NCBI RefSeq assembly: GCF_024758005.1
Contig: NZ_CP103288.1
Span: 496,001 to 560,000, forward strand
Direction of reading: 5' to 3'
Source: Pseudarthrobacter sp. NS4
GTDB lineage: Bacteria > Actinomycetota > Actinomycetes > Actinomycetales > Micrococcaceae
Length of the DNA: 64,000 nt
The notes under the pieces were generated by a model. That model was given only the letters and a program-made list of their open reading frames with translations, had not been told where the DNA came from and did not search any database. Positions 30,748 to 59,088 of the stretch are shown here, piece by piece. The position numbers and the translations under genes are program-made. Position 1 is the first letter of the stretch; every line of letters begins with the position of its first letter.

Positions 30748-32013
30748 CTAGGCGGGCTGTGCCACCTGCTGCCGGGCGTGCTCCCGTGCGAGGCTTCCCA
30801 GCCACCGCGCACTTTCCTTCGGAGTGCGTTCCTGGGTGCTGCGGTCCACGGCGATCAGGCCGAATTTGGGCCGGTAGCCGAAGATCCACTCGAAGTTGTC
30901 GAACGCCGTCCAGGCGATGTAGCCGCGGACATCGATGCCGTCGGCCAGGCAGGAGGCTACGCAGTCCACGGCGGTCTGGAGGAATTTCACCCGCTGGGTG
31001 TCGTCCTCGGTGGCCAGTCCGTTTTCGGTCACCATCACCGGGATGCCGGCAATCCGATGGGCTTCCCGGATGGTTGCCTCGAGGGCCTGCGGGTAGATTT
31101 CCTCGCCGGATTGAGTGAGGACCGCCCCGGCGGGTGCCGGGGCAAGGCCGTCCGGGCCGTAGACGGTGCGGCCGTAGGTCTGGATTCCCACAAAGTCGTC
31201 ACCGCGGGAGGCCTCCAGGAACCGGACGTTGACGTCGCGGCGCGCGCGTTCAGCGCGCTCTTCACCGCCGTCAGCGAATTGGATGTCGGTGTTCGCCAGG
31301 GTCCAGCCCACCAGGAGTTCCGGGCGGCGGGCTTTGATGGCGGCGGTGGCTGCCCGGTGGGCTGCGAGCTTTACCTCGAACGCGGCCTCCGTGGAGCAGA
31401 ACTGGAAGGGGGCAATCGTGCTGGCATCCACGCCCAGTCGTTCGGCGGCTGCCGCCCACATTGGCACGGAGCCGCGGCTTTCCGGGGCCTCGCCGCCGAT
31501 GCCGAAGGACTCCAGCAGCCACGGCAGGTTGGGTTCATTCAACGTACAGGCGACGCCGATGAGGTCGCCCAGGTGCGCCATCACCCGGTCGCAGTAGCGG
31601 GCAAAGAGTTCCGGGGTCCGGGAGCTTTCCCAGCCACCGGACTGCAGCAGCCAGAGGGGGGACGTGAAGTGGTGGAAGGTCACCACCGGTGTAAGCCCGT
31701 GTTCACGGCAGGTTTCCAGCATCCGCTTGTAATGGTTGAGCCCGGCTGTGGAGAACTCACCCTCGGCAGGTTCGATGCGCGCCCACTCGAGGGAGAAGCG
31801 GTAGCTGGTGAAGCCGAGGCTGGCAATCAGCGCGATGTCCTCGCGGTACCGGTGGTAGTGGTCCAGGGCGTCTCCGGAGGGTTCCGAGAAGATCGTTCCG
31901 GGCAAGTGCTCCAGGAACCAGGTGTCGCTGTTGACGTTGTTGCCTTCCACCTGGTGTCCGGCGCTGGCCACACCCCACAGGAAGTCGGCCGGGAAGGAAG
32001 GGGAGAGTGTCAT
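30748..32013 (-). CDS. Beta-glucosidase family GH1
   Basis: The 421-residue cytoplasmic glycosidase starts at the ATG at 32013 behind AAAGGA. It opens with FPADFLWGVASAGHQVEGNN. The acid/base Glu is in CTLNEPNLPW and the nucleophile in PVMVTENGLATEDD. FGYRPKFGLIAVDR near the end is typical GH1. No phospho-sugar-binding signature was identified, so a plain beta-glucosidase or beta-galactosidase is likely. It is divergent from the ABC importer across a shared IclR-like operator. In the island it would remove the inner glucose left after rhamnosidase action. Confidence 0.92.
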   Translation of the reverse strand: MTLSPSFPADFLWGVASAGHQVEGNNVNSDTWFLEHLPGTIFSEPSGDALDHYHRYREDIALIASLGFTSYRFSLEWARIEPAEGEFSTAGLNHYKRMLETCREHGLTPVVTFHHFTSPLWLLQSGGWESSRTPELFARYCDRVMAHLGDLIGVACTLNEPNLPWLLESFGIGGEAPESRGSVPMWAAAAERLGVDASTIAPFQFCSTEAAFEVKLAAHRAATAAIKARRPELLVGWTLANTDIQFADGGEERAERARRDVNVRFLEASRGDDFVGIQTYGRTVYGPDGLAPAPAGAVLTQSGEEIYPQALEATIREAHRIAGIPVMVTENGLATEDDTQRVKFLQTAVDCVASCLADGIDVRGYIAWTAFDNFEWIFGYRPKFGLIAVDRSTQERTPKESARWLGSLAREHARQQVAQPA

Positions 32014-32107
32014 GAGAGTCCTTTCAGTGCAACGCCGGCAGCCCGGCGTCGGGCTTCGTTGCCTGATACTCATCCTGTCGTCCAAAGTGACCAGCACCAC
32101 AGAAGTA

Positions 32108-32122
32108 TTTCAACCAATGAAA
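32108..32122. promoter_or_regulatory. IclR-type operator, site 1 (between GH1 and the importer)
   Basis: TTTCA-ACCAA-TGAAA is a perfect inverted repeat (arms extend to TATTTCA and TGAAATA). It sits about 100 bp from both divergent starts (32013 and 32227). The same layout recurs at 42987, 52964 and 59074. Confidence 0.7.
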
Positions 32123-32226
32123 TATCCATGTCTGCCCAAAACCCGATCACAGCATTCTTGAGGGAGCCGGCCATCCGTCTGGCCCCAATCTCTCCGTTGT
32201 CACATCAGAATGCAAAGGCGCACTAT

Positions 32227-33783
32227 ATGAAACTTCTGAACTCCACTGCCCGTGCGAGCTCCGCCGTTCTGGCCGGAGCGCTACTGCTGGGATCGTTGAC
32301 TGCTTGCGGCGGCGGGTCCGGCCAGGCGGCCGCCAAAGTGGACACCAGCACGCTCACGCTTGCCATCGACAGCGACTCCGCATCGTTCGGCTTCGACCCG
32401 TTGCGCGTCTCGGCTGCACAGCGGCAGTTCTTCGAAGGCCTCTACGAAAGCCTCATGACCCTGCAGGCGGATGGATCGGCGGGTCCAGGCCTGGCCAAGG
32501 AGTTCAGCTACAACGCGGACAACACCGTCCTGACGCTCACCCTCAAGGACGACGTAACGTTTACGGACGGGTCCAAACTCGATGCCGAGCTGGTCAAGGC
32601 AAACCTCGACCGCCGCTCCGATCCCGCGCTGAGCGCCTACTCCGCCGTGGCCAAGGGCGGAGCCCAGGAGATCACCTCCGTGGACGTGGTCAGCCCCACC
32701 CAGGTGGCGTTGACATTCGCCAAGCCACAGCCTGGCTTCGAGAAGAACCTGGCCTCCACCACCGGCATGATCGTGGGTAAGAACGGTGTGACCGATTCGG
32801 CCAGCCTCGCCGCCACACCCGCAGGTTCCGGTCCCTACATCCTCGATCCCGCCACCGTGAAGGGCAACAAGTATGTCCTGGTGAAGAACGACAAGAGCCC
32901 GGAAGCCCCGAAGTACGCCTTCGATAAGGTCATCTTCAGCGTCGTCCTCGACCCGCAGGCCCGGGCGAACGCCCTGGTTTCAGGCCAGGCCGACGTGGCG
33001 ATGCTGACCTCGAACACCGTTGACTTCGCCAAGTCCAAGGGCGTGGGCGTGTCCCAGATCGGCGGCACCGTCAACACCATGGTCTCCTTTGACAAGATCG
33101 GCAAGACCGCCCCGGCATTCGCGGAAGAAAAGGTCCGCCAGGCGTTCCAGTACGCCATCAACCGTCAGGCCCTGGTTGATGCACTTCACAAGGGCGACAT
33201 CCCGGCCTGGAACGCCCTGCCGAAGGACTCTGCAGGCTTTACCAAGGAGCTGGAGACCAAGTTCGCCTACAACCCGGACAAGGCCAAGGCCCTGCTGGCC
33301 GAAGCAGGCTACCCGGACGGCTTCGAATTCACTATCGTCGCCGGAGCCCAGACCCAGACGGACCTGCAGGCAGTCCAGAAGGACCTCGCCGCCGTCGGAA
33401 TCACCATGAACATCAAGATGGCCGCCTCCACAGATGAAGCCTTCGCCGCCGTCGCCACCACGCCCCTGGGCTACGCGCCGCTCAGCTGGGACAACCCGGT
33501 CGGATTCATGTACGGTGCCGTCCTCAACGGTTTCACTAACGTGCAAAAGGCCACCGACGAGCAGCTCAGCGCCGCCACCGGCGAACTGGCGGCGGCCAAG
33601 GATGATGCTGCCGTCAAGGCCGCGGCCACCAAGCTGAACACCCGGCTGGTGGAATCCGGCTGGATGATCCCGCTGTATGAAGCACTCGTGAACCAGGGCT
33701 ACAACACCAAGAAGGTGGCCCCGGTGGAGTTCGCCGGGACCAACGCCTACCCGCTCCTCTCGTCCTACAAGCCGGCCAGCTAA
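32227..33783 (+). CDS. Family 5 solute-binding lipoprotein of a Dpp/Opp-type ABC importer
   Basis: The 518-residue extracellular binding protein begins at the ATG at 32227 (AAAGG 10 nt before). The long open frame upstream on this strand is a shadow of the GH1 gene. A lipobox LTAC at about residue 25 ends the signal peptide. The family 5 pattern is clear: PLRVSAAQRQFFEGLYESL, LTLKDDVTFTDGSKLDAELV and VRQAFQYAINRQALVDALHK. It captures the substrate for the permeases that follow. Family 5 proteins bind peptides but also beta-glucosides and oligosaccharides. With a GH1 and two GH78 genes in the island, a phenolic or rhamnose-containing glycoside is the likely ligand. Confidence 0.92.
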   Translation: MKLLNSTARASSAVLAGALLLGSLTACGGGSGQAAAKVDTSTLTLAIDSDSASFGFDPLRVSAAQRQFFEGLYESLMTLQADGSAGPGLAKEFSYNADNTVLTLTLKDDVTFTDGSKLDAELVKANLDRRSDPALSAYSAVAKGGAQEITSVDVVSPTQVALTFAKPQPGFEKNLASTTGMIVGKNGVTDSASLAATPAGSGPYILDPATVKGNKYVLVKNDKSPEAPKYAFDKVIFSVVLDPQARANALVSGQADVAMLTSNTVDFAKSKGVGVSQIGGTVNTMVSFDKIGKTAPAFAEEKVRQAFQYAINRQALVDALHKGDIPAWNALPKDSAGFTKELETKFAYNPDKAKALLAEAGYPDGFEFTIVAGAQTQTDLQAVQKDLAAVGITMNIKMAASTDEAFAAVATTPLGYAPLSWDNPVGFMYGAVLNGFTNVQKATDEQLSAATGELAAAKDDAAVKAAATKLNTRLVESGWMIPLYEALVNQGYNTKKVAPVEFAGTNAYPLLSSYKPAS

Positions 33784-33791
33784 TTCCCGCA

Positions 33792-33839
33792 CCTGCCGGG
33801 CGGGCTTTCCTCACCAAACAGGAGGGCAAGCCCGGCAGG
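33792..33839 (+). other. Intercistronic hairpin after the binding-protein gene
   Basis: CCTGCCGGGC (33792-33801) pairs with GCCCGGCAGG in the right arm (33828-33839), extended through a bulge by GGCTT/AAG and CCTC/GAGG. Such stems after a binding-protein gene usually protect its mRNA and lower expression of the downstream permease genes. Confidence 0.55.
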
Positions 33840-33860
33840 GCCTGACCGATGGAGGTCACC

Positions 33861-34802
33861 ATGGCACTATTCATCACCAAGCGCCTGCTGATGGCGCTGG
33901 CCACCGTGCTGGTGGTTGCGGTGCTGGCATTCATGCTGGTGCACGCAATGCCCGGCAGCCCCGGAGCCGTGTCCCTCGGGGCCGGTGCCACCCCGGAAGC
34001 GATTGACGAAGTTAACCACCGCCTGGGCTGGAACGATCCCCTCGTGGTCCAGTTCTTCAGCTGGCTCGGCGCCGCAGTCCAGGGGGATTTCGGAATTTCG
34101 CTCATTGACGGCCGGTCGGTCAGCGCGGACCTGGCGGGCAGGCTCCCTGTCACTGCGTCCCTCGCTGCAGGAGCCACCTTGCTCAGCGCTGTCCTCGGCA
34201 TTGCGCTGGGCGTCACCGCAGCCGTCCGCGGCGGCATGGTGGACCGCATCATCGGCGGTGTCTGTGGGATGGCAGTTGCACTCCCGGCCTTCTGGATCGG
34301 CATCATTTTTGTCTACTTCCTGGCCGTCCAGTCCCCCGTCTTTCCCGCGACCGGCTACGTCCCGTTCGAGGTTTCGCCCCAGGATTGGGCGCTGTCCCTG
34401 GCGCTGCCCGTGATCACCCTGGCCGTGGGCGGAGCGGCGTTCATTGCCCGCCAAACCAGGGCCTCCATGCTCGAGGCACTGCAGCAGGAACACATCCGGA
34501 CGCTCCGGGCCACGGCTACCCCCACCTGGAAGATCCTGTACGTCCATGCCCTGCGTTATGCCAGCCTGCCCATCGTGGCCGGCATCGCGCTGCAGTTCAT
34601 TCAGCTTTTCGGCGGTTCAGTCATCGCGGAGCAGTTGTTCGCCATGCCGGGCCTGGGCCAGGCGGTCCAGACCTCCGTCAGCACCCATGACGCCCCGTCC
34701 GTGCAGGGCGTGGTGGTGATCGCCACCGTGGTGGTGGTCGCCGTGAACCTGGTGCTGGAACTCGCCACCAAGTTCCTCGACCCGAAGTTGCGTGCCTCAT
34801 GA
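33861..34802 (+). CDS. ABC importer permease (DppB/OppB type)
   Basis: The 313-residue inner-membrane permease has the DppB-type N-terminus (FITKRLLMALATVLVVAVLA, then FMLVHAMPGSP) and about six helices. The EAA coupling loop is RTLRATATPTWKILYVHALR. The start at 33861 follows TGGAGG. Its stop overlaps the start of the next gene (ATGA), a sign of coupled translation in the importer operon. Confidence 0.93.
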   Translation: MALFITKRLLMALATVLVVAVLAFMLVHAMPGSPGAVSLGAGATPEAIDEVNHRLGWNDPLVVQFFSWLGAAVQGDFGISLIDGRSVSADLAGRLPVTASLAAGATLLSAVLGIALGVTAAVRGGMVDRIIGGVCGMAVALPAFWIGIIFVYFLAVQSPVFPATGYVPFEVSPQDWALSLALPVITLAVGGAAFIARQTRASMLEALQQEHIRTLRATATPTWKILYVHALRYASLPIVAGIALQFIQLFGGSVIAEQLFAMPGLGQAVQTSVSTHDAPSVQGVVVIATVVVVAVNLVLELATKFLDPKLRAS

Positions 34803-36862
34803 TTCCCAACGTTGCCCCCGCACCAGCAGATTCAGCGGAGCCGACGGCGGCTGCCGTCCCTCCGAAGGCCACGCGCCAAAGCACGGCAAAGAAATTCACC
34901 GGCAACAAACTGTTCGCCTCACCTGCAAGCATCGCCGGCGTGATCTGGCTGGCCGCGATCGTCATTGCGTCCTTGACTGCGCCGCTGTGGCTGCCCTACA
35001 AGACCGAGGACCAGGATTTCACCGCCGTCCTGTCCGGACCCACCGCCGCCCACTGGCTCGGCACCGACGAACTCGGCCGTGACATCCTTAGCCGCATCTT
35101 CGCTTCCGCAGCCGGCACGCTGGGAACGTCCATGATCACGGTGATTGTCGCCGTCGGGCTCGGCACCATCCTGGCGATGCTGGCGGCGGCCGCCGGGGAA
35201 CGCGTGGAGAACGCCATCAGCCGCGTCACCGAAATCATGATGTCGCTGCCCGGCACCGTCATCATCCTCGCCGTCATCGGCGCCGTGGGAACGAACATCC
35301 CGCTGATCATGGCCATCCTCGGCGTGCTGATCTCCGCCGGTATGTACCGGGTCATGCTGGGCCAGGCCAAGTCCCTGCAGTCCCAGCTGTACGTGGACGC
35401 AGCCAAGGTGGACGGCGTCAGCACGGCCGGCATCAGCCTCCGGCATGTCCTGCCCGGGCTGACGAACACCATCGTGGTGCAGTCGGCCCTGATCTTCGCC
35501 GTCGGCATGCTGATCCAGGCCGGCCTGGCGTTCATCGGTTTTGGCCCGCCCATCCCGGAACCGAGCTGGGGCGGCATGATCCAAGGCGCATCCCAGAACG
35601 TTTATAACGCGCCCTGGTTGATGGTTCCCACCGGCGCCGTGCTGGCGCTGACAGTCCTGGCCGCCAACGCCATCGGCAACGCCCTCGGCAAGGCGCCCAA
35701 CGCCACCGCCTCACACCTGCCCTCCACCGCCGCCCGGCGGCAGCGCGCCAAAGCGGTGGCCGCGATCGCCGCGGCTGCTCCGGCTGGAAAGGACGAGGCG
35801 GCTAAGGACACGCTCAGCGTCCGCAACCTCACCGTGGGCGTTGACAACGGCGTCCGCCTGGTCACCGATGTTTCCTTCGACGTCGAACCCGGCACCGTGC
35901 TGGGCCTGGTGGGCGAATCCGGCTGCGGCAAAACGATGACCGCACTGTCCCTCCTGGGGCTTCTGCCGTCCGGAGTATCCGTGACCGGCGGGCAGATCCT
36001 CTGGAACGGCAAGAACCTGGCCGCGGCAACGGACAAGGACATGGAAGGCATCCGCGGACGCGACATAGCGCTCATCTCGCAGGAGCCCATGCGCGCCCTG
36101 GACCCCATGTTCACCGTCGGCTACCAACTCACCGCCACCATCCGCCGGCTCCGGGGAATGGGCAAGGCTGAAGCGAAGGCCGAAGCCCTAAGCCTGCTGG
36201 AAAAAGTGGGCATCGTGGACGCCGCGCGGATCCTCAAGACCTACCCGCACCAGATCAGCGGCGGCATGGCCCAGCGCGTTGCCATCGCCCTGGCGCTTTC
36301 CGGCCGCCCCCGGCTGCTCGTGGCAGACGAACCCACCACAGCCCTGGACGTCACCGTGCAGGCGGAGATCCTTTCCCTGCTGCGCGGCCTGGTGAGGGAT
36401 ACCGGGATGTCGGTGGTCATGGTCACCCACGATCTTGGCGTGGTGGCCGACCTCTGCGACCAGGTGGCCGTGATGTATGCCGGCCAGGTTGTTGAAAACG
36501 GCCGGACGGACAGCATCCTGGACAACCCCCGCCACCCCTACACCCTTGCCCTGCTGGCAGCGGACCCGCACGCCAACCACGCGGCGGACATGCCGGAGCG
36601 GCTGGCCACCATCAACGGCCAGGTTCCCCAGCCCAAGGACTGGCCCACCAGCTGCCGCTTCGCCGCCCGCTGCCAGTTCGCCGGCTCTGCGTGCATGGTC
36701 CCCATCCCGCTGCTTCCCTCCGGAACCGGTGACGGCCTGGTGCGCTGCATAAAAGCGGATGAACTTGCCGTCGAAGGGCTGGACTGGGTGGCCACCGACG
36801 TCCCCAGCCACCACGTTCTGAACCTGGTTGAAACCAGGGCTGTCGAAAAGGATCACGCATGA
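34799..36862 (+). CDS. Fused ABC importer permease-ATPase (DppC-DppD type)
   Basis: At 687 residues, the first 300 form a DppC-type permease (HWLGTDELGRDILSRIFASA; EAA loop AAKVDGVSTAGISLRHVLPG). The rest is an OppD-type ATPase: Walker A GESGCGKT, Q-loop ISQEPM, signature ISGGMAQR, Walker B LLVADEPTTALD and the H-loop VTHDLG. An Ala-rich linker (about 300-325) joins them. The oligopeptide-binding tail has the usual cysteines (CRFAARCQFAGSAC). Such fusions occur in actinobacteria; here the protein supplies both TM2 and NBD1. It overlaps both neighbours by ATGA. Confidence 0.92.
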   Translation: MIPNVAPAPADSAEPTAAAVPPKATRQSTAKKFTGNKLFASPASIAGVIWLAAIVIASLTAPLWLPYKTEDQDFTAVLSGPTAAHWLGTDELGRDILSRIFASAAGTLGTSMITVIVAVGLGTILAMLAAAAGERVENAISRVTEIMMSLPGTVIILAVIGAVGTNIPLIMAILGVLISAGMYRVMLGQAKSLQSQLYVDAAKVDGVSTAGISLRHVLPGLTNTIVVQSALIFAVGMLIQAGLAFIGFGPPIPEPSWGGMIQGASQNVYNAPWLMVPTGAVLALTVLAANAIGNALGKAPNATASHLPSTAARRQRAKAVAAIAAAAPAGKDEAAKDTLSVRNLTVGVDNGVRLVTDVSFDVEPGTVLGLVGESGCGKTMTALSLLGLLPSGVSVTGGQILWNGKNLAAATDKDMEGIRGRDIALISQEPMRALDPMFTVGYQLTATIRRLRGMGKAEAKAEALSLLEKVGIVDAARILKTYPHQISGGMAQRVAIALALSGRPRLLVADEPTTALDVTVQAEILSLLRGLVRDTGMSVVMVTHDLGVVADLCDQVAVMYAGQVVENGRTDSILDNPRHPYTLALLAADPHANHAADMPERLATINGQVPQPKDWPTSCRFAARCQFAGSACMVPIPLLPSGTGDGLVRCIKADELAVEGLDWVATDVPSHHVLNLVETRAVEKDHA

Positions 36863-37869
36863 GCACCGCAACTTCGGTCCGTCCGGAAGCACCGCTGCCG
36901 GATGCTGCCCAGCCGCTGCTGGAGGTCAAGGACCTGGTGGTCCGCTACGGACGCGGACGCAAGGCAGCCGCAGCTCCCGCCGCCGTCGACGGCGTGAGCT
37001 TCAGCATCGCCCCCGGCGAAACAGTGGGCCTGGTGGGGGAGTCCGGCTCCGGCAAATCAACCATCGGCAAAGCCATCCTGGGATTGCAGAAAGTCTCCCG
37101 TGGCTCCATCACCTACCAGGGCAAGGACATCACGTCCGCCGGCGCATCCCAGCGCAGGGTCCTGGGCGGAGAGCTGCGGGCCGTCTTCCAGGACCCCAAC
37201 TCCTCCCTGAACCCCCGGAACACAGTGGGTTCTTCGCTGGCAGAGCCCCTCCGGCTCCGCGGCGTGAAACCGGGCGAGGCGCGGCAGCGGGCCGAGGACA
37301 TGCTGGAACGCGTGGGCCTCCCGCGTGAGGCCGTGGACCGGTACCCCAGCCAGTTCTCCGGCGGCCAGCGCCAGCGCATCTCCGTGGCGCGGGCCCTCAT
37401 CTGCGACCCCAAGCTGGTGGTTTGCGATGAAGCCGTGAGCGCCCTGGACCTCTCCACCCAAGCGCAGGTGCTGAACCTCCTGGCCGACCTGCGCGACGAG
37501 CGCGGCCTGGGCTACCTGTTCATCGCCCACGACATCGCCGTGGTCCAGTTCCTCGCCCAGCGCGTCGTCGTCCTCTACCGAGGGCAGGTGATGGAAAGCG
37601 GACCCGCCGCCGCCGTCACCGAGAACCCCAGGCACCCGTTCACCCGGGCCCTCGTTGCAGCGTCCCCCGTGCTGCGGCCCTCCGAGCAGGCTGCGCGCCG
37701 GCAGGCCCGGGAATCCCTGGGCGTTCGGACGGGAGCGGCGGCAACCCCTGGTCCCGGAGGATGCCCCTTCCGGCTTCGTTGCCCGTTGGCCACCGACCTC
37801 TGCCGTGACGAACGCCCCGCCCTCAGGCAGGTAGGCGGCTCCGACGTCGCCTGCCACTACGCTTCATAA
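36859..37869 (+). CDS. ABC importer ATPase (OppF/DppF type)
   Basis: The 336-residue second ATPase has Walker A GESGSGKST, signature FSGGQRQRI, Walker B LVVCDEAVSALDLS and a cysteine-bearing OppF tail (CPFRLRCPLATDLC). It pairs with the ATPase domain of the fused protein to power the importer. The start lies in an ATGA overlap. It is the last importer gene; the MBL-fold gene follows after 67 bp. Confidence 0.94.
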   Translation: MSTATSVRPEAPLPDAAQPLLEVKDLVVRYGRGRKAAAAPAAVDGVSFSIAPGETVGLVGESGSGKSTIGKAILGLQKVSRGSITYQGKDITSAGASQRRVLGGELRAVFQDPNSSLNPRNTVGSSLAEPLRLRGVKPGEARQRAEDMLERVGLPREAVDRYPSQFSGGQRQRISVARALICDPKLVVCDEAVSALDLSTQAQVLNLLADLRDERGLGYLFIAHDIAVVQFLAQRVVVLYRGQVMESGPAAAVTENPRHPFTRALVAASPVLRPSEQAARRQARESLGVRTGAAATPGPGGCPFRLRCPLATDLCRDERPALRQVGGSDVACHYAS

Positions 37870-37936
37870 CCACCTTGGTCCTCCGCATTATCGGGGGCAG
37901 CACGTCTACATCTCAACACCAGAATCGGAGCCATCC

Positions 37937-38860: not shown

Positions 38861-38932
38861 CGGGGGCTGCCTGTCTGACCGAATGCCGGTCCACCCTGAC
38901 CTGACCCGATACACAGAACGGAATACCACCAC

Positions 38933-41233: not shown

Positions 41234-41238
41234 GCGCC

Positions 41239-42078: not shown

Positions 42079-42083
42079 ATGCG

Positions 42084-48625: not shown

Positions 48626-48649
48626 CCAGGCCTTTCCGGCCCGGTGACG

Positions 48650-49996: not shown

Positions 49997-50009
49997 GGTC
50001 TAATGCCTC

Positions 50010-51011: not shown

Positions 51012-51028
51012 GGTAGGTCTCCTCGTGC

Positions 51029-52132
51029 TCAGGCGGTCGGCAGGGCGGCGAGGCGGCCCTCGGCCTCGAGGGCGCGCTCCAGGAGCCGGCGTACCCACAT
51101 CCCGCCCATGTCGATGTTGAGGTTGTAGAACTCGTAGTCCGGGTTGGCGTCGATCGCCTCCTGCTGCGCCAGGAGCATAGCCTCGTCCTCGCCGAAGACC
51201 CCGTGCACTCCGTCGCGCAGCTGCGTGGTGATGAGCTGGCTCTCAAGCCGGTAGTTGCGCATGAATGCCCAGAAGTAGTGGCAGGAGCGCTCGGTCTCCG
51301 GGGTGATCGTGTTCATTACGTAGCCGTTCACTCCCCGGGACCGGTCTCCCTCGGGCGCCCCGGTCCCGGCCTCGGCGACCCCGACATCAATGCAGATGGT
51401 GGACGGGAAGTAGTAGTGGATGATCTGCCAGCGGTCCACCTTGCCCTCAAAGCCGGGAAACTTGTCACGCATGTTCTTCCGCCAGAACGGCGGGGCGTCG
51501 ATGTTGTGCATCCAGCGGGTCACGGTTACGGAGGTCTCGTCGTGGGTCACCTCGAACTCGGACTCGGACAGCTCCTCTTGCCCAATTGAGGAGCTGTGCA
51601 CGAACTCCTCGTGGGTGAGATCCATGAGGTTGTCGAGGACCAGCTGGTAGTTGCACGGGGCATGGATGGTCTCGCCGTCTCCGGCCCACTCAGGGCTGTC
51701 CAGCTGGTGCATGTCCGGCACGAGGGACGGGTCGGCCTTTGTCGGGTCACCGAGCCACACCCACACGTAGCGGTGACGTTCCACCACCGGGAAGGATGGC
51801 ACCGTGGCCGATGGGTTGAGGGTCTCCTGGGCCGGCATGGAGGTGCAGCGGCCGGCGGCATTGTAGCGCAGGCCGTGGTAGGGGCACTGGATCTCGTCGC
51901 GGCCCACAAGCTTGCCTTGGGACAGCGGGGCTAGGCGATGCCAGCAGGCGTCGGCGAGCGCGACGGCGCGGCCGTCCTGGGACCGGTACAGGGCCAGGGG
52001 CCGGCCCGCGACGGTGCGGGCAAGGATTCCCTTGGCAGTGATTTCGTGGTCCCACCCCGCCACGAACCAGGCGTTGAGCGGGGAGGGCAGAAGCTTGGCG
52101 GTGGTGGTGGTCTTCGTCGCGGAGACGGTCAT
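51029..52132 (-). CDS. vanA: Vanillate O-demethylase oxygenase-type Rieske protein
   Basis: The 367-residue oxygenase has the Rieske cluster ligands in ACWHRLAPLSQG and CPYHGLRYN. The mononuclear iron site is DNLMDLTHEEFVHSSSIG, nearly identical in form to VanA. VanA converts vanillate to protocatechuate and formaldehyde. Placed in a flavonoid-type island, it may demethylate methoxylated B-ring acids such as vanillate or isovanillate. Two palindromes and a PadR-family gene lie upstream, so expression is probably derepressed by a phenolic acid. Confidence 0.92.
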   Translation of the reverse strand: MTVSATKTTTTAKLLPSPLNAWFVAGWDHEITAKGILARTVAGRPLALYRSQDGRAVALADACWHRLAPLSQGKLVGRDEIQCPYHGLRYNAAGRCTSMPAQETLNPSATVPSFPVVERHRYVWVWLGDPTKADPSLVPDMHQLDSPEWAGDGETIHAPCNYQLVLDNLMDLTHEEFVHSSSIGQEELSESEFEVTHDETSVTVTRWMHNIDAPPFWRKNMRDKFPGFEGKVDRWQIIHYYFPSTICIDVGVAEAGTGAPEGDRSRGVNGYVMNTITPETERSCHYFWAFMRNYRLESQLITTQLRDGVHGVFGEDEAMLLAQQEAIDANPDYEFYNLNIDMGGMWVRRLLERALEAEGRLAALPTA

Positions 52133-52176
52133 GGTGCAATCCTTCGCTGGGCGGCCGGAGAGAGCAGCTACTGATA

Positions 52177-52228
52177 ACTATCGACATAGTGTTTTAGTGA
52201 CTCACAGCACACAATATCTATGTAGATA
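52177..52228. promoter_or_regulatory. Two PadR-type operator palindromes in the vanA-padR intergenic region
   Basis: ACTAT-CGAC-ATAGT (52177-52190) and TATCTA-TG-TAGATA (52215-52228) are both perfect inverted repeats with a shared TATC-N-A-N2-TAG pattern, about 38 bp apart. They lie between vanA and the PadR gene, fitting autoregulation plus control of vanAB. Confidence 0.65.
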
Positions 52229-52296
52229 GTGAGTTGCAACTCTTTCCCGGAGCTAGGCTAAGAATGGCGATGCGCCGCAGATTTGAAAGGACCCCC

Positions 52297-52905
52297 GTGA
52301 CCCTCCGCTCGGCACTGCTGGCCCTGCTGTCCTCGGGCCCGCTGACCGGCTACGACCTGGCCAAGCAGTTCAGCTCCTCCGTGGGCCATGTCTGGCACGC
52401 TCCCGACTCGCAGATCTACCCTGAGTTGAGGAAGATGCACGCCGAGGGCCTGCTGTCGAGCCGGCCCGTGCCGTGGGGCACCCGCGGAGCCACCAAGACC
52501 GAGTATGCCCTCACGCCTGCAGGCGAGGCGGCTCTGCGGCAGTGGCAGGCTCAGCCGTTGACCTACGTCCAGGACCGGGACCCTGCCCGGCTCAGGGCCG
52601 CCTATTTCGAGTGGGCGCCCCCGGGTGCGGCAGTTGCGCAGCTGCGGGCGCACATCGCCCACTATGAGGAGCAGCGCCGCCAAAGCCTTCAGATGATCGA
52701 GTCGCTCGAAACGCGCACCCATCCCACTCTTGCCCGGCGCCTCAACCGGTATCCCGAAGAGGAACGGGAGCAGATCGTCGGCTTCAAGATCTTTGCCTAC
52801 CAAGGCCAGCTTGCCCATGCCGAACAGGAGATCGCCTGGGCGAAGCGCGGCCTGCAGCTGCTGGAGGAGCTGGAAAAATCAGGAAAACCCAATCCGGTGA
52901 GGTAG
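52297..52905 (+). CDS. PadR-family transcriptional regulator (VanR-like)
   Basis: The 202-residue regulator starts at GTG 52297 behind GAAAGGA. The N-terminal winged helix reads LLALLSSGPLTGYDLAKQFS, followed by HVWHAPDSQIYPELRKMHAE and the wing TEYALTPAGEAALRQW, the PadR pattern. A C-terminal helical dimerisation domain completes it. It is divergent from vanAB-transporter. PadR-type VanR repressors of vanABK are known in corynebacteria; the same role is likely here. Confidence 0.88.
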   Translation: MTLRSALLALLSSGPLTGYDLAKQFSSSVGHVWHAPDSQIYPELRKMHAEGLLSSRPVPWGTRGATKTEYALTPAGEAALRQWQAQPLTYVQDRDPARLRAAYFEWAPPGAAVAQLRAHIAHYEEQRRQSLQMIESLETRTHPTLARRLNRYPEEEREQIVGFKIFAYQGQLAHAEQEIAWAKRGLQLLEELEKSGKPNPVR

Positions 52906-52963: not shown

Positions 52964-52978
52964 TTTCATTCAGTGAAA
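52964..52978. promoter_or_regulatory. IclR-type operator, site 3 (before the esterase-monooxygenase operon)
   Basis: TTTCA-TTCAG-TGAAA, perfect 5-bp arms and a 5-bp spacer, lies 118 bp before the ATG at 53096. It shares arms and the internal CA with the sites at 32108, 42987 and 59074. Confidence 0.6.
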
Positions 52979-53095
52979 CCGGCCGCGCACGCGGGTACCG
53001 GCATGTCCGACAGTTGACTCAGGACGCAGCCATGAACAAGGGCTGCGGACAGCACAAACACGGGACAGAACGGCGCGGTACACATGGAGTCAACG

Positions 53096-53965
53096 ATGAC
53101 GGCAGGGCGGATCCTTCAAGGGATAGAGTTCGCACGCCCCGAGGGTTCGAGCCCGCTGCTGCTGGACCTCTACCTGCCCGGCGGCGCGTCCGACGGCGGC
53201 ACCTTTCCCGCCGTGATCCATTTCCACGGCGGCGGATGGCGGACCGGCGGGCGTTCGTCCCTGGGGCCCACTGTGGACGGTTTCGGCCTCAGCCCCATTG
53301 AGCAGCTGATGGACGCAGGCTTTGTGGTTGCCTCCGCCGACTACCGCCTCAGCAGTGTTGCCACCTTCCCGGCCCAGCTGCTTGATGCCAAAGCTGCTGT
53401 CGGCTGGCTCAGGGCGCACGCCGCTGAATACAACCTGGACCCGCGCCGCATCTACGCATGGGGCGATTCGGCCGGCGGCCACCTCGCAAGCCTTGTGGGA
53501 CTCACTGCCGGGGCAAAGGAATTCGGGGCACCGGGCAGGCACGCTGACGATGCCGTCGCGGCAGTGGCTGCCTGGTACCCGCCCACGGACCTGAACAGGA
53601 TGGGCGAACAGGCCCGGCCCGACGCCGTCGCCCGCGCCGATGATCCCGGCTCCCGGGAAGCGCTGCTGATCGGTGCCCAACCCGCGGACGCTCCGGACAA
53701 AGCCGCCGCGGCGAGCCCCAGCTCTTACGTCCACACCGCCGCGCCGCCCTTCTTTCTCGCCCACGGGACGGCCGACCGCTTTGTCCCCGTGGCGCAGTCA
53801 ACCGCACTCGCCGAAGCGCTGGAATGTGCCGGCGCCGCCGTCGAACTCCTCCTGCTGGAAGGCGCGGACCACATGTGGTCCCTCCCGGACAAGAGCCAGG
53901 CTGCCGCACAGCAGGCCACCGCGGCCACCATCGATTTTTTCCGCCGCCAGGCGCAAAACCACTGA
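53096..53965 (+). CDS. Alpha/beta hydrolase (BD-FAE-like esterase)
   Basis: The 289-residue esterase has VIHFHGGGWRTGG (oxyanion hole), AWGDSAGGHLASLVG (nucleophile), FLAHGTADRFVP (acid) and ADHMWSL (histidine). The ATG at 53096 is preferred since GGAG lies 6 nt before it; an in-frame ATG at 53084 lacks a site. It is first in an operon with FAH, FAD monooxygenase and DUF3500 genes. This makes it the best candidate for hydrolysing the depside or a feruloyl-type ester in the phenolic pathway. Confidence 0.88.
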   Translation: MTAGRILQGIEFARPEGSSPLLLDLYLPGGASDGGTFPAVIHFHGGGWRTGGRSSLGPTVDGFGLSPIEQLMDAGFVVASADYRLSSVATFPAQLLDAKAAVGWLRAHAAEYNLDPRRIYAWGDSAGGHLASLVGLTAGAKEFGAPGRHADDAVAAVAAWYPPTDLNRMGEQARPDAVARADDPGSREALLIGAQPADAPDKAAAASPSSYVHTAAPPFFLAHGTADRFVPVAQSTALAEALECAGAAVELLLLEGADHMWSLPDKSQAAAQQATAATIDFFRRQAQNH

Positions 53966-54017
53966 CCCGGAATCCGGCACCCCCGATGTGGTGCCGGACA
54001 GACCCGAAAGGCTCCAC

Positions 54018-54884
54018 ATGCAGTTCATCGGCATCAACCACCTTGGCGAATCCTGGGCAGCGGCCCTGGTGGATTCGCGCGTCGTCCCGCTCGCACCGGT
54101 TTCGGACTTCTGGGCCGACGCCGCCGGCTGGCAAGACAAGTCTGTCTCGCTGGTGTCCGCCGCGGCCGACGGCGGCACGCCGCTTGAGCGCGCCCACGTC
54201 ACCGAAGTGCCGCTCGTCCCCGCCTCGGCACGGGTCATCTGTGTGGGGCTGAACTACAAGGCCCATGCAGCCGAGGGCAGTTACAAGGACCAGGAGCTTC
54301 CGCCCTACCCAACCCTGTTCGGGCGCTGGACTGCATCCTTGTCCGTGGGCAACGTCCCCGTCCCTGTCCCGGCAGGGGAGGCAGGCCTGGACTGGGAAGG
54401 CGAAGTGGCCGCCTACATAGGCCGGCGGCTGGAATCGGCGGACGAGGCAACCGCGGCCGACGCAGTCTTCGGCTATTCCACCTTCAACGACATCACCTCC
54501 CGCACCGCCCAGAAGCTCACCTCGCAGTGGACGCCGGGCAAAAACGGCGACTTCAGCGGCCCGCTCGGACCGCTGGTGACCCGCGACGAGGTGGGCGACC
54601 TGCGTGACGGCCTCCAGGTGCGTACCCGCGTCAACGGCGTGGAGGCCCAGAACGGCAACACCCGGGACATGATTTTCTCCGTTCCGGCCATCATCTCGCT
54701 GATCAGCCAGACCTTCACGCTGCACCCGGGCGACCTCATTGCCACCGGCACCCCCGAAGGCGTCGGCTATGCCCGCACCCCGCAGTGGCTGCTCCAGCCG
54801 GGCGACGTTGTCGAGGTGGAAATCGACAAGCTCGGCACCCTCACCACGCCGGTAGGCGACGTATCGCTCCGGAGCCGTGCCTGA
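54018..54884 (+). CDS. Fumarylacetoacetate hydrolase family protein
   Basis: The 288-residue protein has the FAH fold core: ICVGLNYKAHAAEG, the metal ligands in GLDWEGEVAAYIGR, GYSTFNDITSRTAQ and GDLIATGTPEGVGY. Relatives hydrolyse or decarboxylate acylpyruvates and ring-cleavage products such as maleylpyruvate or fumarylpyruvate. AAAGG precedes the ATG. It overlaps the monooxygenase start (TGATG). It could process the product formed after hydroxylation and cleavage of the aromatic ring, but no ring-cleavage enzyme is next to it. Confidence 0.9.
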   Translation: MQFIGINHLGESWAAALVDSRVVPLAPVSDFWADAAGWQDKSVSLVSAAADGGTPLERAHVTEVPLVPASARVICVGLNYKAHAAEGSYKDQELPPYPTLFGRWTASLSVGNVPVPVPAGEAGLDWEGEVAAYIGRRLESADEATAADAVFGYSTFNDITSRTAQKLTSQWTPGKNGDFSGPLGPLVTRDEVGDLRDGLQVRTRVNGVEAQNGNTRDMIFSVPAIISLISQTFTLHPGDLIATGTPEGVGYARTPQWLLQPGDVVEVEIDKLGTLTTPVGDVSLRSRA

Positions 54885-56638
54885 TGGCCACCTTCCACGA
54901 CACCCCTGCCGGCGGGATCCCGGAGGAGGCCCGCATCCTCATCTCCGGCGGCGGCCCCAGCGGATTGTTCCTGGCCCTGGACCTCGCTTCCCACGGTATC
55001 CCCAGCACCGTCATTGAGCCCCGCACCACCGTGGACCACACCCGCCCGCGGGCCAAGACCACCAACGCCCGCACCATGACCCACCTGCACCGGCTCGGAC
55101 TCGCGGACGCGCTCCGGAGGGCCTCGCCGCTCCCGGTGGACTACGCACAGGACGTCATCTTCTGCACCGCCCTCACAGGGCCCGCCGCGCATGAGCTGCG
55201 GCGCTTCCGGAACGCCTTCCAGCTGAACCCCGGCCGGTACGGTCCGCAGCCCGAATGCGGGCAGCAGGTCCCGCAGCCGGTCCTGGAAGAGGTGCTCCGC
55301 GACGCAGCGGCAGGCAATCGGCTGGTCACCTTCCTTACCGGCTGGTCAGTAACAGAGGTTTCAGGCGGGCAAGCCCCTTACGCCATCACGGTCTCCAACC
55401 CCTCGGACGAACGCCGGACCATCACCACGGATTTCGTGATCGGGGCCGACGGCGGATCCTCCGCCGTGCGGCGCAGCCTGGGGATCAGGCTGGAAGGTGG
55501 CTCCGCGGCGCTGTCCAACATCAGCATCCTCTTCCGTTCCAGCCAACTTGCCTCGGCCGTGACGCTGGACCCCGCGGTCCAGTACTGGGTGGTGGGGCAG
55601 GACGCGGCAGGGATGGTGGGCCCGATGGACCTTAAGGACACCTGGTGGGCCATTGTGCAGGGGGTGGACCCGGACAGGGAAGTGGGCCAGGAGGAGGCCG
55701 GCGCCATGGTGCGGTCCCTGGTGGGTTCGGACGTCGACATCGACGTGCTCGCCACGGACCCGTGGACCGCCCGTATGCTGCTGGCTCCCGAATACAGCCG
55801 CGGCAATATCTTCCTGGTGGGCGACGCTGCCCATCTCAACCCGCCATGGGGCGGCCACGGCTTCAACACCTGCATAGGCGACGCCGCCAACCTGGCATGG
55901 AAGCTCGCTGCCGTCATCAAGGGATGGGGCGGGCCCTCGCTTCTGGCCAGCTACGGGGACGAGCGCAGGCCGGTGGCCGCCCGCACCATCCGGGACGCTG
56001 CGGCCAACGGCAAGGCCCTGGCCTACCATTTCGCCGACCCCGGCCTCACTTCAGAAGGCGCCGCAGGTGAAGCGGCCCGGCAGGCGGCACACCGGGCGCT
56101 CGCCGTGAAGCAAAGCGAGTTCGATTCCCTGGGCCTGGTTCTCGGTTATGCCTACGCTGATTCGTCCGTGGTGGTGCCCGACGGCTCGCCCGTTCCCGCT
56201 GAGGACCCCATCCGCTATATTCCCAGCGCCAGCCCGGGCGCCCTGTTGCCCCACGTGTGGCTGGAAGATGCCACCTCGGTCTATGGCCGGCTGGGCCAGG
56301 GCTTCACCCTGCTGGTAGATGCCGGCGCGCTGGGCCGGGTGCCGGAAGCCGAGGGTTTTGCAGCGGTTCTGGAGGCTGGTGCCCGGCAGGGCATCCCGGT
56401 GACCATTGCCGCCGTCGGACCCGCAGACGACGGCACTCCGCTGTCCGAAGTGTGGGGAACGGAAGCTGTGCTGGTCCGCCCGGACCAGCATGTGGCCTGG
56501 CGCGGCAGCTCCCCCGGGGCTGCCGCCGCAGCACTGTCCATCGCCGCCGGCTGGCCGGCATCCCAACAGCCGCCATCCCAGGATCCGGCATCCCAAGACC
56601 AGTTCAGGAGTACCCGTGTCGACGCTGTCATTCCGTGA
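54884..56638 (+). CDS. FAD-dependent aromatic monooxygenase (PheA/TfdB/MhpA type)
   Basis: The 584-residue flavoprotein has the dinucleotide-binding GGGPSGLFLALDLASHG, the DG motif GADGGSSAVRRSLGI and the GD motif FLVGDAAHLNPPWGGHGFNT. A thioredoxin-like C-terminal domain, typical of phenol hydroxylase-like enzymes, follows. It overlaps both neighbours. It should hydroxylate a phenolic ring with NAD(P)H. Candidate substrates are phloroglucinol carboxylate, phloroglucinol, or the flavonoid A-ring itself; the sequence does not decide. Confidence 0.9.
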   Translation: MATFHDTPAGGIPEEARILISGGGPSGLFLALDLASHGIPSTVIEPRTTVDHTRPRAKTTNARTMTHLHRLGLADALRRASPLPVDYAQDVIFCTALTGPAAHELRRFRNAFQLNPGRYGPQPECGQQVPQPVLEEVLRDAAAGNRLVTFLTGWSVTEVSGGQAPYAITVSNPSDERRTITTDFVIGADGGSSAVRRSLGIRLEGGSAALSNISILFRSSQLASAVTLDPAVQYWVVGQDAAGMVGPMDLKDTWWAIVQGVDPDREVGQEEAGAMVRSLVGSDVDIDVLATDPWTARMLLAPEYSRGNIFLVGDAAHLNPPWGGHGFNTCIGDAANLAWKLAAVIKGWGGPSLLASYGDERRPVAARTIRDAAANGKALAYHFADPGLTSEGAAGEAARQAAHRALAVKQSEFDSLGLVLGYAYADSSVVVPDGSPVPAEDPIRYIPSASPGALLPHVWLEDATSVYGRLGQGFTLLVDAGALGRVPEAEGFAAVLEAGARQGIPVTIAAVGPADDGTPLSEVWGTEAVLVRPDQHVAWRGSSPGAAAAALSIAAGWPASQQPPSQDPASQDQFRSTRVDAVIP

Positions 56639-57854
56639 CTTCCTTTTTGCCCCGGACCACCCGCGGGTGGCGGAAATCCGCGGCCTGAATGCCCGTGAAT
56701 ACGCTGAAGCAGCGAAAACCGATTCCTTCGCGGGGCCCATGATCGAGGGCTGGACAAAGCTGTATCCGCAGGCTTTCACCGGCATCACCAGCGACGGTGT
56801 CCGCCGCGAGGGCCTGTATCCGCTCACCGCCGCACGTCCCGGTGAGGAGGCGCCGACCGCGGAAATGGTGGCGGCAGCGGGCAAGCTCCTCGGTGCGGTT
56901 ACCGCCGAGCAGAAGCGCAGGCTTTGCTACGCCGTGGATGCGCCGGAGTGGCAGAGCTGGGCCAACCCTGAGTTCATGCAGCACGACACCGGGCTCCGGC
57001 TGGATGAAATGGATCCGCCGGTCCGCGACGCCGCGCTCGCATTGGTGGAGGCTGGCCTGAGCGCCGAGGGCTACGAACTGGTGCGGAACCTGATGCGGAT
57101 CAACGGTTTCCTCGGAGATCTGGTGGAGCTGCCGCTGCTGATGAACGAGTTCAGCTACAACGTGGCCCTTTATGGCGAGCCGTCGGAGACTGAGCCGTGG
57201 GGGTGGCAGATCTTTGGCCACCACGCCGCGCTGAACTGCCTGGTGGCCGGGACGCAGCTGGTGATCTCGCCCGTGTTCATGGGTGCCGAACCGGACATGA
57301 TCGACGACGGCCCGCACAAGGGCGTCAAGGTGTTCAAGGAGCGCATTGGGCTGGCCCGGCAGCTGATGGCTGCGCTCCCGGAGGACCTTCGGGCGCAGGC
57401 TACGGTATACCGGGAGATGGTGGACCCGGCCATGCCGGAGGGCCGGATCCACCCGGGCGACGAACGCCACCTCGGGGGCTGCTTCCAGGACAACCGCGTG
57501 ATCCCGTACGAGGGCATCCGGGTAGCTGACATGCCGGCAGAAGCCCGCGTGGTGCTGGACGCCGTGGTGGACGACTTTATTGCCTATCTCCCGGACGGCC
57601 CAAGGGCTGCCCGCCGCCGGGAGATCCAGGAGCGCTACACTGAAAGCTTCTTCAGCTGGATAGGCGGCTGGAAAGGTGAAGAGGCGTTCTACTTCCGGCT
57701 GCAGAGCCCGGTGGTGGTACTGGAACTCGACCATCACACCGGCGTGTTCCTGAGCAACGACGAGCCCGCACCGTTCCACATGCACACTGTGGTCCGCACC
57801 CCCAACGGCAACGACTATGGCCGTGAACTTGTGAAGCAGGCCTGGAACAGCTGA
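56616..57854 (+). CDS. DUF3500 domain protein
   Basis: The protein is 412 residues from GTG 56616, which follows AGGAG and overlaps the monooxygenase end by 23 bp. It matches DUF3500 in form: LLMNEFSYNVALYGEPSETE, then PWGWQIFGHHAALNCLVAGT, and VVLELDHHTGVF near the end, with several conserved His and Trp. The family has no established biochemical role that I know. Translational coupling to an FAD monooxygenase, FAH protein and esterase in a phenolic island suggests an enzyme acting on a pathway intermediate, perhaps metal-dependent. Confidence 0.88.
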   Translation: MSTLSFRDFLFAPDHPRVAEIRGLNAREYAEAAKTDSFAGPMIEGWTKLYPQAFTGITSDGVRREGLYPLTAARPGEEAPTAEMVAAAGKLLGAVTAEQKRRLCYAVDAPEWQSWANPEFMQHDTGLRLDEMDPPVRDAALALVEAGLSAEGYELVRNLMRINGFLGDLVELPLLMNEFSYNVALYGEPSETEPWGWQIFGHHAALNCLVAGTQLVISPVFMGAEPDMIDDGPHKGVKVFKERIGLARQLMAALPEDLRAQATVYREMVDPAMPEGRIHPGDERHLGGCFQDNRVIPYEGIRVADMPAEARVVLDAVVDDFIAYLPDGPRAARRREIQERYTESFFSWIGGWKGEEAFYFRLQSPVVVLELDHHTGVFLSNDEPAPFHMHTVVRTPNGNDYGRELVKQAWNS

Positions 57855-57866
57855 TCCCGTGGCGAC

Positions 57867-57902
57867 AAGAAGGCCCGGACTTTTGAAAGTCCGGGCCTTC
57901 TT
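57867..57902. terminator. Bidirectional terminator between DUF3500 and quercetinase genes
   Basis: AAGAAGGCCCGGACT (57867-57881) pairs perfectly with AGTCCGGGCCTTCTT (57888-57902), loop TTTGAA. TTGTTG follows. It separates the two convergent island units. Confidence 0.88.
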
Positions 57903-57918
57903 GTTGCCGTGGAAAAAG

Positions 57919-58989
57919 CTAGGAGATTTCGAGTGCCGTCCGGCGCTGGGGCGGGGGGCCCACCACTGTCAGGTCCATTTCGGCCTGGGCCCGGCCGAAG
58001 CCTTCCATGTCCATGTAGGGCTCGCCGCCCTCGGTGTACATGTAGTCCTCGGTGGGCTTGTTGAAGTACTCGAAGAATCCGTTGAAGACCGACGGGGTCA
58101 GGAAGCCCACCATCTGGGTGTTGTGGGAATCCAGGGCGAAGGAGTGGATGGTGCCGGCAGGGGCGTGCACGAAGTCGCCCTTGGTCAGCAGCATTTCGCG
58201 TCCGTTGGCGTACATCCACATCCGGCCTTCGGTGACGAGGAAGTTCTCAGTGTGCTCCGAGTGGAAGTGCAGCGGGATATAGGGCGTCTTGGCTCCCTTG
58301 GTGTGCACTGCAAAGTAGTTTGAGCCGGTGTTGGCCGGCCGTGACAGGTAGGTGAACATGGTCTGGTAGCTGACCAGGCGCTCGCCTTCGTGGGCGCTGA
58401 GGAAGTAGGGGCTCTGCGTGGGCGGCAGGCCGGCGTCGCGCTTGAACGCGGGAGTGACCCGCTCCACGTCAGGGAAGGAGATGCCGAACTCGGCCCCCAC
58501 CTCAGCCTGCTCCTGCCGGCTTGCCGTGTGGCCGGCACGGACAGGCGGGACGTGGGAATCAATGGGCGTCCCCACCCGCTCGTAGTACGCCTCGCCGCCG
58601 CCGGGGGTCATCCAGTTCAGGAACCGGGTGTAAGGGCTGGCCATCCGGTAGGCGTGCGGGGTGCCCGGCGGGATCACAACCGAGTCTCCCGGCGTGAGGA
58701 TCCGGCTTTCACCGGGAAGCCAGACGTGCAGGATGCCATCAAAGACGTAGAGGGTCTTGTGTTCCACCTTGTGGCTGACGAACGGCGATTCCGCACCCAT
58801 GCCGCCGGAGATATAGGCCGCACTGAAGATGCCGCCGGTGTCCGCTGCCCGGGCAATCACCGTCACCAGCTGGCCGTTGATTTCGTAGCGTGCGCCCTCG
58901 CCGGACGCCATGTAATACGGGACCGCTTCGCCGGGCAGCACGTTGGCTGCCGGGAGCTGGGTGTTCATTTCCTCAACGCTGAGGGACAT
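57919..58989 (-). CDS. Quercetin 2,3-dioxygenase-like bicupin
   Basis: The 356-residue bicupin resembles bacterial quercetinases over both halves: PYYMASGEGARYEINGQLVT, IPPGTPHAYRMASPYTR and ALDSHNTQMVGFLTPSVFN. Quercetinase opens the flavonol heterocycle with O2, releasing CO and a depside. The C-terminal cupin has an intact metal site (His241, His243, Glu248, His282). The N-terminal one is altered: of the usual HxH...E only His73 and His112 remain, with Val71 and Lys78 at the other ligand positions. GAAGGAAACC precedes the ATG. An IclR-type operator lies 85 bp upstream. Other flavonols or a related cupin substrate are possible. Confidence 0.85.
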   Translation of the reverse strand: MSLSVEEMNTQLPAANVLPGEAVPYYMASGEGARYEINGQLVTVIARAADTGGIFSAAYISGGMGAESPFVSHKVEHKTLYVFDGILHVWLPGESRILTPGDSVVIPPGTPHAYRMASPYTRFLNWMTPGGGEAYYERVGTPIDSHVPPVRAGHTASRQEQAEVGAEFGISFPDVERVTPAFKRDAGLPPTQSPYFLSAHEGERLVSYQTMFTYLSRPANTGSNYFAVHTKGAKTPYIPLHFHSEHTENFLVTEGRMWMYANGREMLLTKGDFVHAPAGTIHSFALDSHNTQMVGFLTPSVFNGFFEYFNKPTEDYMYTEGGEPYMDMEGFGRAQAEMDLTVVGPPPQRRTALEIS

Positions 58990-59073
58990 GGTTTCCTTCT
59001 TTCCAGTCGGCCGGCACTTGCCGGAGCGTGACCTACATCATGGCTGGCGCAAGGGCGCCCCCACGACCGGAAA

Positions 59074-59088
59074 TTCCATTGGATGAAA
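59074..59088 (-). promoter_or_regulatory. IclR-type operator, site 4 (before the quercetinase gene)
   Basis: Read on the gene's strand this is TTTCA-TCCAA-TGGAA, differing from site 1 at two positions. It lies 85 bp upstream of the ATG at 58989. Confidence 0.65.

Follow-up and report, generated by a model that had tools for sequence, protein, structure and literature searches.

Described systems and the NS4 locus

Leaves and root exudates are rich in flavonols and their rhamnoglucosides, and by established quercetinase chemistry the opening of a flavonol, followed by the action of an esterase, would yield 2,4,6-trihydroxybenzoate. Here, we analysed a candidate island for the use of such glycosides in Pseudarthrobacter sp. 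NS4, located in positions 496001–560000 of its single 4.44-Mb contig (64,000 nucleotides, hereafter the window, whose own numbering is used below). The island consists of two blocks, block 1 (30748–47708) and block 2 (53084–58989). With a probability of about 0.7, we read it as a conserved and probably co-regulated flavonol-glycoside island that carries a candidate bacterial version of a central pathway described from fungi.

This fungal pathway runs through 1,2,3,5-tetrahydroxybenzene. In the accessible text of the work on A. nidulans, the compound comes from gallate via PhyA, and its conversion into 5-hydroxydienelactone is attributed, as a proposal, to a DUF3500 protein (PMC12388069). FAMeDB (2026), in its accessible part, counts the 1,2,3,5-tetrahydroxybenzene route among the central pathways, with the remark that it 'currently seems restricted to fungi' (PMC13094099). 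The family is printed as DUF3550, IPR021889, in the part of a source on the fungal pathway that was accessible. We report here a new likeness: the FAD monooxygenase (FMO), FAH-family and DUF3500 genes of block 2 resemble the gene set proposed for this pathway. A DUF3500 protein and a monooxygenase occur both in the fungal pathway (A. nidulans AN10530) and in the window set; unlike the former, the latter is bacterial, operonic and joined to a quercetinase, an esterase and glycoside uptake. We take IPR021889 to be the entry of DUF3500. A fungal cluster with a monooxygenase, an FAH-like gene and DUF3500 was reportedly described by Martins in 2024, where 2,4,6-trihydroxybenzoate is said to be named as a related substrate, and a short protein is said to act on 5-hydroxydienelactone in the fungal pathway. 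Judged as a member of this pathway, the window set has the DUF3500 protein, an FAH-like hydrolase (which we presume to be a fungal component as well) and an FMO of the FAD_binding_3 family.

The other enzymes also have characterised counterparts. Like QdoI/YxaG of B. subtilis, the window quercetinase is a bicupin with intact C-terminal ligands, but QdoI has two intact metal sites and the window enzyme one, and the latter sits in a catabolic island. The monocupin QueD (PDB 5fli), from which the window type differs, has its counterpart in clusters of Geodermatophilaceae. The GH1 beta-glucosidase is closest to the glucosidase BGL167 (best PDB match 4r27, E 1.4e-247), and both GH78 alpha-L-rhamnosidases have the domain set of their family (N, concanavalin-like, 6-hairpin and C domains, all found by Pfam); the GH1 and GH78 proteins differ from these counterparts in genome context and in the proposed flavonol substrate. 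Literature searches, in which subscription journals were thinly covered so that absence is weak evidence, showed, among the titles listed, no report of a comparable bacterial flavonol island and none that names genes for what becomes of the flavonol A ring in aerobic bacteria.

Gene content and conservation of the island

Families were assigned by Pfam scans of the open frames, and all the gene classes that an initial annotation of this DNA had named were recovered at their places. In block 1, the GH1 gene (30748–32013, minus strand; PF00232, with TxNE and ENG motifs and no export signal seen) is divergent from a plus-strand importer, composed of a family 5 solute-binding lipoprotein (SBP_bac_5, with a lipobox; 32227–33783), an OppB-type permease (33849–34802), an OppC permease fused to an OppD ATPase (34799–36862) and an OppF ATPase (36859–37869). 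These are followed by rhamnosidase GH78a (38933–41233, plus; four GH78 Pfam domains) and by the proposed island regulator, an IclR protein (42084–42950, minus) divergent from rhamnosidase GH78b (43187–45766, plus). Two esterase-fold proteins close the block on the plus strand: a BD-FAE-type esterase 1 (45763–46755; PF20434) and an alpha/beta hydrolase of the Abhydrolase_3 family (46752–47708), in which a GxSxG motif was looked for and not found. Block 2 contains, on the plus strand, BD-FAE-type esterase 2 (53084–53965; PF20434), the FAH-family protein (54018–54884; PF01557), the FMO (54884–56638; PF01494 and PF21274) and the DUF3500 protein (56616–57854; PF12006, 340.7 bits), with the bicupin quercetinase (57919–58989, minus) facing them. 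FAH and FMO overlap as TGATG, and FMO and DUF3500 by 23 bases. A crude signal check gave no obvious export signal for the island enzymes; together with the lipobox on the solute-binding protein, this suggests that sugar removal is probably intracellular.

Co-occurrence of quercetinase and DUF3500 in relatives had been put forward with the initial annotation as a check, and it is pronounced. In a genus sample of 150 genomes, including Arthrobacter and Pseudarthrobacter (quercetinase match at E ≤ 1e-40, gene fragments counted), quercetinase was present in 50 genomes, DUF3500 in 52 and both in 48 (Fisher P 6e-32); since the genomes are related, such P values overstate independence, and it is the joint presence and joint loss that carry weight. 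DUF3500 occurred alone in four genomes (G007, G008, G038, G154). In 45 of the 50 quercetinase-positive genomes, a DUF3500 match and the quercetinase were no more than 600 bp apart, the exceptions being G009 (3.9 kb), G046 (a remnant adjoining), G110 (the contig ends) and the two genomes with quercetinase alone, G121 and G153. As the quercetinases of G121 and G153 (46–49% identical) occur without DUF3500, a quercetinase can exist without the A-ring block.

The regulator and the importer followed the same distribution. IclR orthologs (E ≤ 1e-80) were found in 47 and the fused OppCD (E ≤ 1e-200) in 46 of the 150 genomes, every one of them quercetinase-positive. The quercetinase-positive genomes without IclR were G153 and also G011 and G155. 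In the latter two, just fragments of quercetinase and DUF3500 are left and neither IclR nor the importer was matched at these thresholds, a case of joint decay; G054, an assembly of 620 contigs, also lacked an importer match. The distance between IclR and quercetinase was 7.4–44.5 kb in 40 same-contig pairs, a count that omits G121 (about 2 kb) as well as six genomes in which the pair is split between contigs. Thus the island genes are a real conserved unit, beyond chance.

The same genome carries a second island at 3.83–3.85 Mb, with 97% identity for the quercetinase, 98% for DUF3500, 78–92% for most other orthologs and only 34% for a nucleoside-hydrolase-like protein; by ortholog comparison, the MBL-fold hydrolase, GH78b and vanAB of the window were not found there. 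DNA identity between the window at ∼55800–58600 and the second island (L043/L044) is 93–100%, and that of the flanking windows is 66–88%. Such a high-identity tract between diverged flanks looks like gene conversion over the end of FMO, DUF3500 and the quercetinase.

A palindrome shared by the island promoters

The island genes were claimed to be co-regulated. Because a perfect palindrome was found between GH1 and the solute-binding protein gene, we searched for ATTTCA-N5-TGAAAT, which gave seven matches at ≤3 mismatches (4.6 expected), with four island-promoter sites among the five matches at ≤2 mismatches. The pattern TTYCA-N5-TGRAA has four perfect matches in the window, one per island promoter region: TTTCAACCAATGAAA between GH1 and the importer (32108–32122; poorly kept among relatives), TTCCAGTCAATGAAA between IclR and GH78b (42987–43001), TTTCATTCAGTGAAA upstream of the A-ring operon (52964–52978) and TTCCATTGGATGAAA upstream of the quercetinase (59074–59088). 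This pattern was derived from one window site, which is no test of it; the other sites are. No 9-mer was common to three or more of the island promoter stretches.

The whole 4.44-Mb genome has 23 sites, and a reversed control pattern has seven. Seven of the 23 lie within the two islands (P 4e-9, with island lengths set by hand); a repeated sequence accounts for another seven, and recomputation with 16 sites gave P 2e-10. The second island has three sites, at the promoters of quercetinase, BD-FAE2 and IclR. The sequence TTCCACGTCGTGAAA has seven genome copies (for example, at 95064, 1093896 and 1907989), and the six that were read share a flank that is transposase-like by eye.

We then surveyed the promoters of orthologs in relatives (≥70% identity, ≥85% length; the window itself left out). 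The perfect palindrome preceded BD-FAE2 in 40 of 41 loci and the quercetinase in 51 of 56, the other five having one mismatch; some loci, here as in the ligand count and among the 80 DUF3500 loci below, are one genome under two labels, and the distinct upstream sequences number 33 for BD-FAE2 (32 with the palindrome) and 46 for the quercetinase. It was also found ahead of IclR (5/5), GH78b (6/7) and the solute-binding protein gene (1/2), and in none of nine GH1 promoters; the IclR and GH78b counts are not independent, as these genes share one promoter region. The arms were constant and the spacers differed (12 among the quercetinase promoters). In the relatives' stretches upstream of genes internal to the operon, no perfect site was found for FMO (0/37), DUF3500 (0/56) or FAH (0/55), nor was one present in the stretch of G121 or in the two Brevibacterium and six Geodermatophilaceae quercetinase loci examined.

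The recurrence of one palindrome at the island's four promoter regions and at most of the corresponding promoters in close relatives supports a single regulon and, with the co-occurrence described above, the claimed co-regulation. IclR would control the set by binding TTYCA-N5-TGRAA. A third IclR protein of the genome (66% identical; L233, G000:C1:3953774-3956040) is divergent from an MFS transporter gene, with the same palindrome between them and an amidohydrolase-family gene next; the position of this site fits an IclR-family operator. In G046, the IclR ortholog (G046:C1:1822576-1823430) has one in-frame TAA, and the A-ring genes of the same genome are broken and replaced.

The quercetinase has one intact metal site

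The window quercetinase matches quercetin 2,3-dioxygenase 2h0v at E 6.9e-62 and shares 37.6% identity with the B. subtilis sequence across 303 aligned positions. In 59 of 59 aligned rows the C-terminal cupin retains its four ligands, so that homology to characterised quercetin 2,3-dioxygenases goes together with one intact 3His-1Glu site. The N-terminal cupin, which would have to be intact as well for a two-site enzyme of the QdoI kind, is degenerate: V, A or I replaces His62 and Lys replaces Glu69 in all 56 close orthologs compared, and in three Brevibacterium rows these two ligands are gone too, with further losses besides. The numbers His62 and Glu69 are those that we take to apply to the B. 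subtilis enzyme. Because they aligned over a short length, 11 loci were excluded from the ligand count: seven with a monocupin, a fragmented one and three from Brevibacterium at 41%. As the N-terminal ligands are replaced and the C-terminal ones kept, the lineage probably uses one metal site. CO-releasing cleavage of a flavonol is the predicted function of this enzyme.

A conserved candidate A-ring block

The initial annotation had listed the FMO, FAH and DUF3500 genes singly and overlooked that they are a separate conserved block, which is best read as the A-ring branch of the pathway. A scan of GTDB genomes with the DUF3500 alignment gave at least 566 relatives, of which the best 80 loci were kept. 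FAH (≥50% identity) was present in 78 of these loci and quercetinase in 40, namely 24 of Micrococcaceae, six of Brevibacterium and ten of Geodermatophilaceae. FMO of the window type (≥45%) was found in 40 of the 40 loci with quercetinase and in 12 of the 40 without; for BD-FAE2 (≥30%) the figures were 39 and 6, the one missing (L165) being cut by a contig end. The gene order differs in Brevibacterium (bicupin) and in Geodermatophilaceae (several orders, monocupin); of the ten monocupins, the one compared with PDB (L142) matches QueD at 3.8e-45. Placed on the DUF3500 tree, both 'bicupin' and 'monocupin' require four or more changes on starred branches, contig-end losses (e.g. L145, L211) being among them. 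In two Modestobacter loci (L142, L170), the monocupin, GH1, Opp importer, IclR, BD-FAE, FAH, DUF3500 and FMO genes stand together in another order.

The genome G046 illustrates the coherence of the block. It has lost FMO, and its FAH and DUF3500 are truncated beside the quercetinase; elsewhere in that island, at a distance of ∼23 kb, lies a divergent DUF3500-FAH-FMO-MFS set (59–66% identity for the first three). This loss, together with a second set, suggests that the A-ring block behaves as one replaceable function. We also considered the FAH protein as a hydrolase of a rhamnose pathway (NF053535; 164.6 bits, cut-off 500), a role that is not favoured because FAH accompanies DUF3500 in 78 of the 80 loci, most of which have no GH78 match in the flank.

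The DUF3500 alignment contains an invariant Gly-His-His, a His-x-His and a conserved Glu. Its structure model (pLDDT 90.9) was searched with Foldseek and VIA-align, which returned no convincing fold besides the match discussed below, although a missing match excludes nothing. Among the best 120 of 2830 matches (8000 candidates scored), no fungal DUF3500 homolog was seen, and the organisms named were Micrococcaceae.

Some DUF3500 and quercetinase loci have other companions. By clustering, a CoA-transferase family III gene lies beside DUF3500 in 12 of the 80 loci, among them L178; the Pfam scans covered L178 and also L114. At L216 (G153:C2:155001-171000), a distant quercetinase stands beside BD-FAE, MFS, FAD monooxygenase, CoA-transferase III and Amidohydro_2 genes, a neighbourhood that possibly represents another A-ring route; the Amidohydro_2 family presumably holds resorcylate decarboxylases. 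For Rhodococcus qingshengii RL1, a hydroxylase, an MFS transporter, a DUF3500 and an FCD-domain protein have adjacent locus tags in the accessible part of the source (PMC8416521), and as given there this gene group resembles the quercetinase-free DUF3500 loci of our survey.

Accessory genes and the variable junction

Two accessory plus-strand genes of block 1 were not named in the initial annotation: an MBL-fold hydrolase (37937–38860), present among the compared island loci only in L131, and the nucleoside-hydrolase-like protein (41239–42078; PF01156, 51 bits). The variable part of the island is the junction between the Abhydrolase_3 and BD-FAE2 genes. In the window, this junction (47792–52905) lies outside the unit and holds a lipoprotein (start 47792), an aromatic-acid-type MFS transporter (start 48650, minus), the reductase VanB (start 50010, minus), the Rieske/VanA_C oxygenase VanA (51029–52132, minus) and a PadR protein (start 52234), of which the lipoprotein, the transporter and PadR are additions to the initial annotation. 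Its inclusion of vanillate demethylase in the set did not hold: VanA occurs in 20 of the 150 genomes, in 6 of 50 quercetinase-positive versus 14 of 100 negative ones (P 0.80), and VanA and VanB had no match in the compared island loci of relatives or in the second copy. We therefore rejected vanAB, MFS and PadR as parts of the unit.

G006 and G035 have ∼20 kb of other genes at this junction. A class of 'core-only' islands without glycosidases was considered and proved wrong for these two, where GH1, importer, GH78 and IclR were found once the islands were extended. A carboxylesterase gene (27958–29562) lies just outside the island; a 62–66% homolog stands beside the second island, and 65–69% homologs are near the quercetinases of several relatives.

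Proposed pathway and alternative readings

From the gene set, its conservation and the shared palindrome, we propose the following pathway, in which all substrates and reactions are predicted from sequence. The Opp-type importer would take up a rhamnosyl or glucosyl flavonol of the rutin type, and cytoplasmic GH78 and GH1 enzymes would strip rhamnose and glucose; these enzymes fit any such flavonol, rutin being only a candidate substrate. The quercetinase would open the aglycone to a depside and CO, and BD-FAE esterase 2, the proposed depside esterase, would cleave this depside to give protocatechuate plus 2,4,6-trihydroxybenzoate. Protocatechuate would probably pass to an intradiol dioxygenase encoded elsewhere, for which the genome has four PF00775 family matches. 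The import, deglycosylation, quercetinase and ester hydrolysis steps agree with those of the initial annotation, and gene content, co-occurrence and the palindrome support them; we hold the flavonol-glycoside function of the island to be very probable.

For the A ring, replacement of the carboxyl by a hydroxyl, worked out on paper, gives 1,2,3,5-tetrahydroxybenzene from 2,4,6-trihydroxybenzoate just as it does from gallate, and because the tetrol is the same, we propose the order FMO, DUF3500, FAH. FMO would be a decarboxylating 2,4,6-trihydroxybenzoate hydroxylase or, alternatively, would hydroxylate phloroglucinol derived from that acid; DUF3500 would open the tetrahydroxybenzene ring, and FAH would hydrolyse the fission product. 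By analogy with fungi, we put this route at even odds or slightly better. The wider proposition is evenly balanced in our view: an actinobacterial 1,2,3,5-tetrahydroxybenzene central pathway with DUF3500 as ring opener, FAH as hydrolase and interchangeable FMOs, which would feed it from different aromatic acids, joined to two types of quercetinase. In Micrococcaceae, Brevibacterium and Geodermatophilaceae, this joining would probably have come about independently and would allow both rings of the flavonol to be degraded completely under aerobic conditions; the Micrococcaceae set as a whole would answer to one operator.

Within the same flavonol island, DUF3500 might instead be a hydrolase or dehydratase that acts after ring opening, for example on a lactone, with FMO or a gene elsewhere opening the ring. 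The only clear structural match of DUF3500, 9x86, is titled dehydratase ApmL of amipurimycin biosynthesis, and more than one kind of chemistry would suit the conserved GHH, HxH and Glu; the structural match weighs against our assignment and would fit a non-oxygenase role. We nevertheless regard this alternative as rather unlikely, since no ring-cleavage family besides the cupin was matched among the proteins of the block, and a ring-opening role for DUF3500 is proposed in the fungal work, as far as its accessible text goes (PMC12388069, PMC13094099).

It might also be argued that the A-ring block is there for gallate, syringate or free 2,4,6-trihydroxybenzoate and merely adjoins a flavonol import module, given that 40 of the 80 loci have DUF3500-FAH but no flanking quercetinase, often with MFS transporters. 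The common palindrome of the quercetinase and the A-ring operon, and the window-type FMO at every quercetinase locus, make this improbable. A more radical possibility is that the island serves rhamnosylated saponins or some other aryl glycosides, its quercetinase-like cupin acting on a non-flavonol. It draws on the degenerate N-terminal site of the cupin and on the GH1 protein being nearest to BGL167, which in the accessible text of its source acts on the gentiobiose moiety of its substrate (PMC12369401). Against it, Geodermatophilaceae have these genes joined to a quercetinase of a second, QueD type, and the depside and A-ring steps all have candidates in the conserved set, so that we consider it quite improbable. 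The class of the BGL167 substrate is, on our side, an assumption.

If the flavonol island with its tetrahydroxybenzene branch is as proposed, a widespread protein of unknown function, DUF3500, would gain a role, and a seemingly fungal pathway would also be bacterial. The quercetinase, a bicupin with one intact site, also lends itself to showing cleanly which of the two cupins does the catalysis. If the proposal holds, rhizosphere genomes could be screened for complete flavonol use by the joint presence of the importer, IclR, quercetinase and DUF3500.

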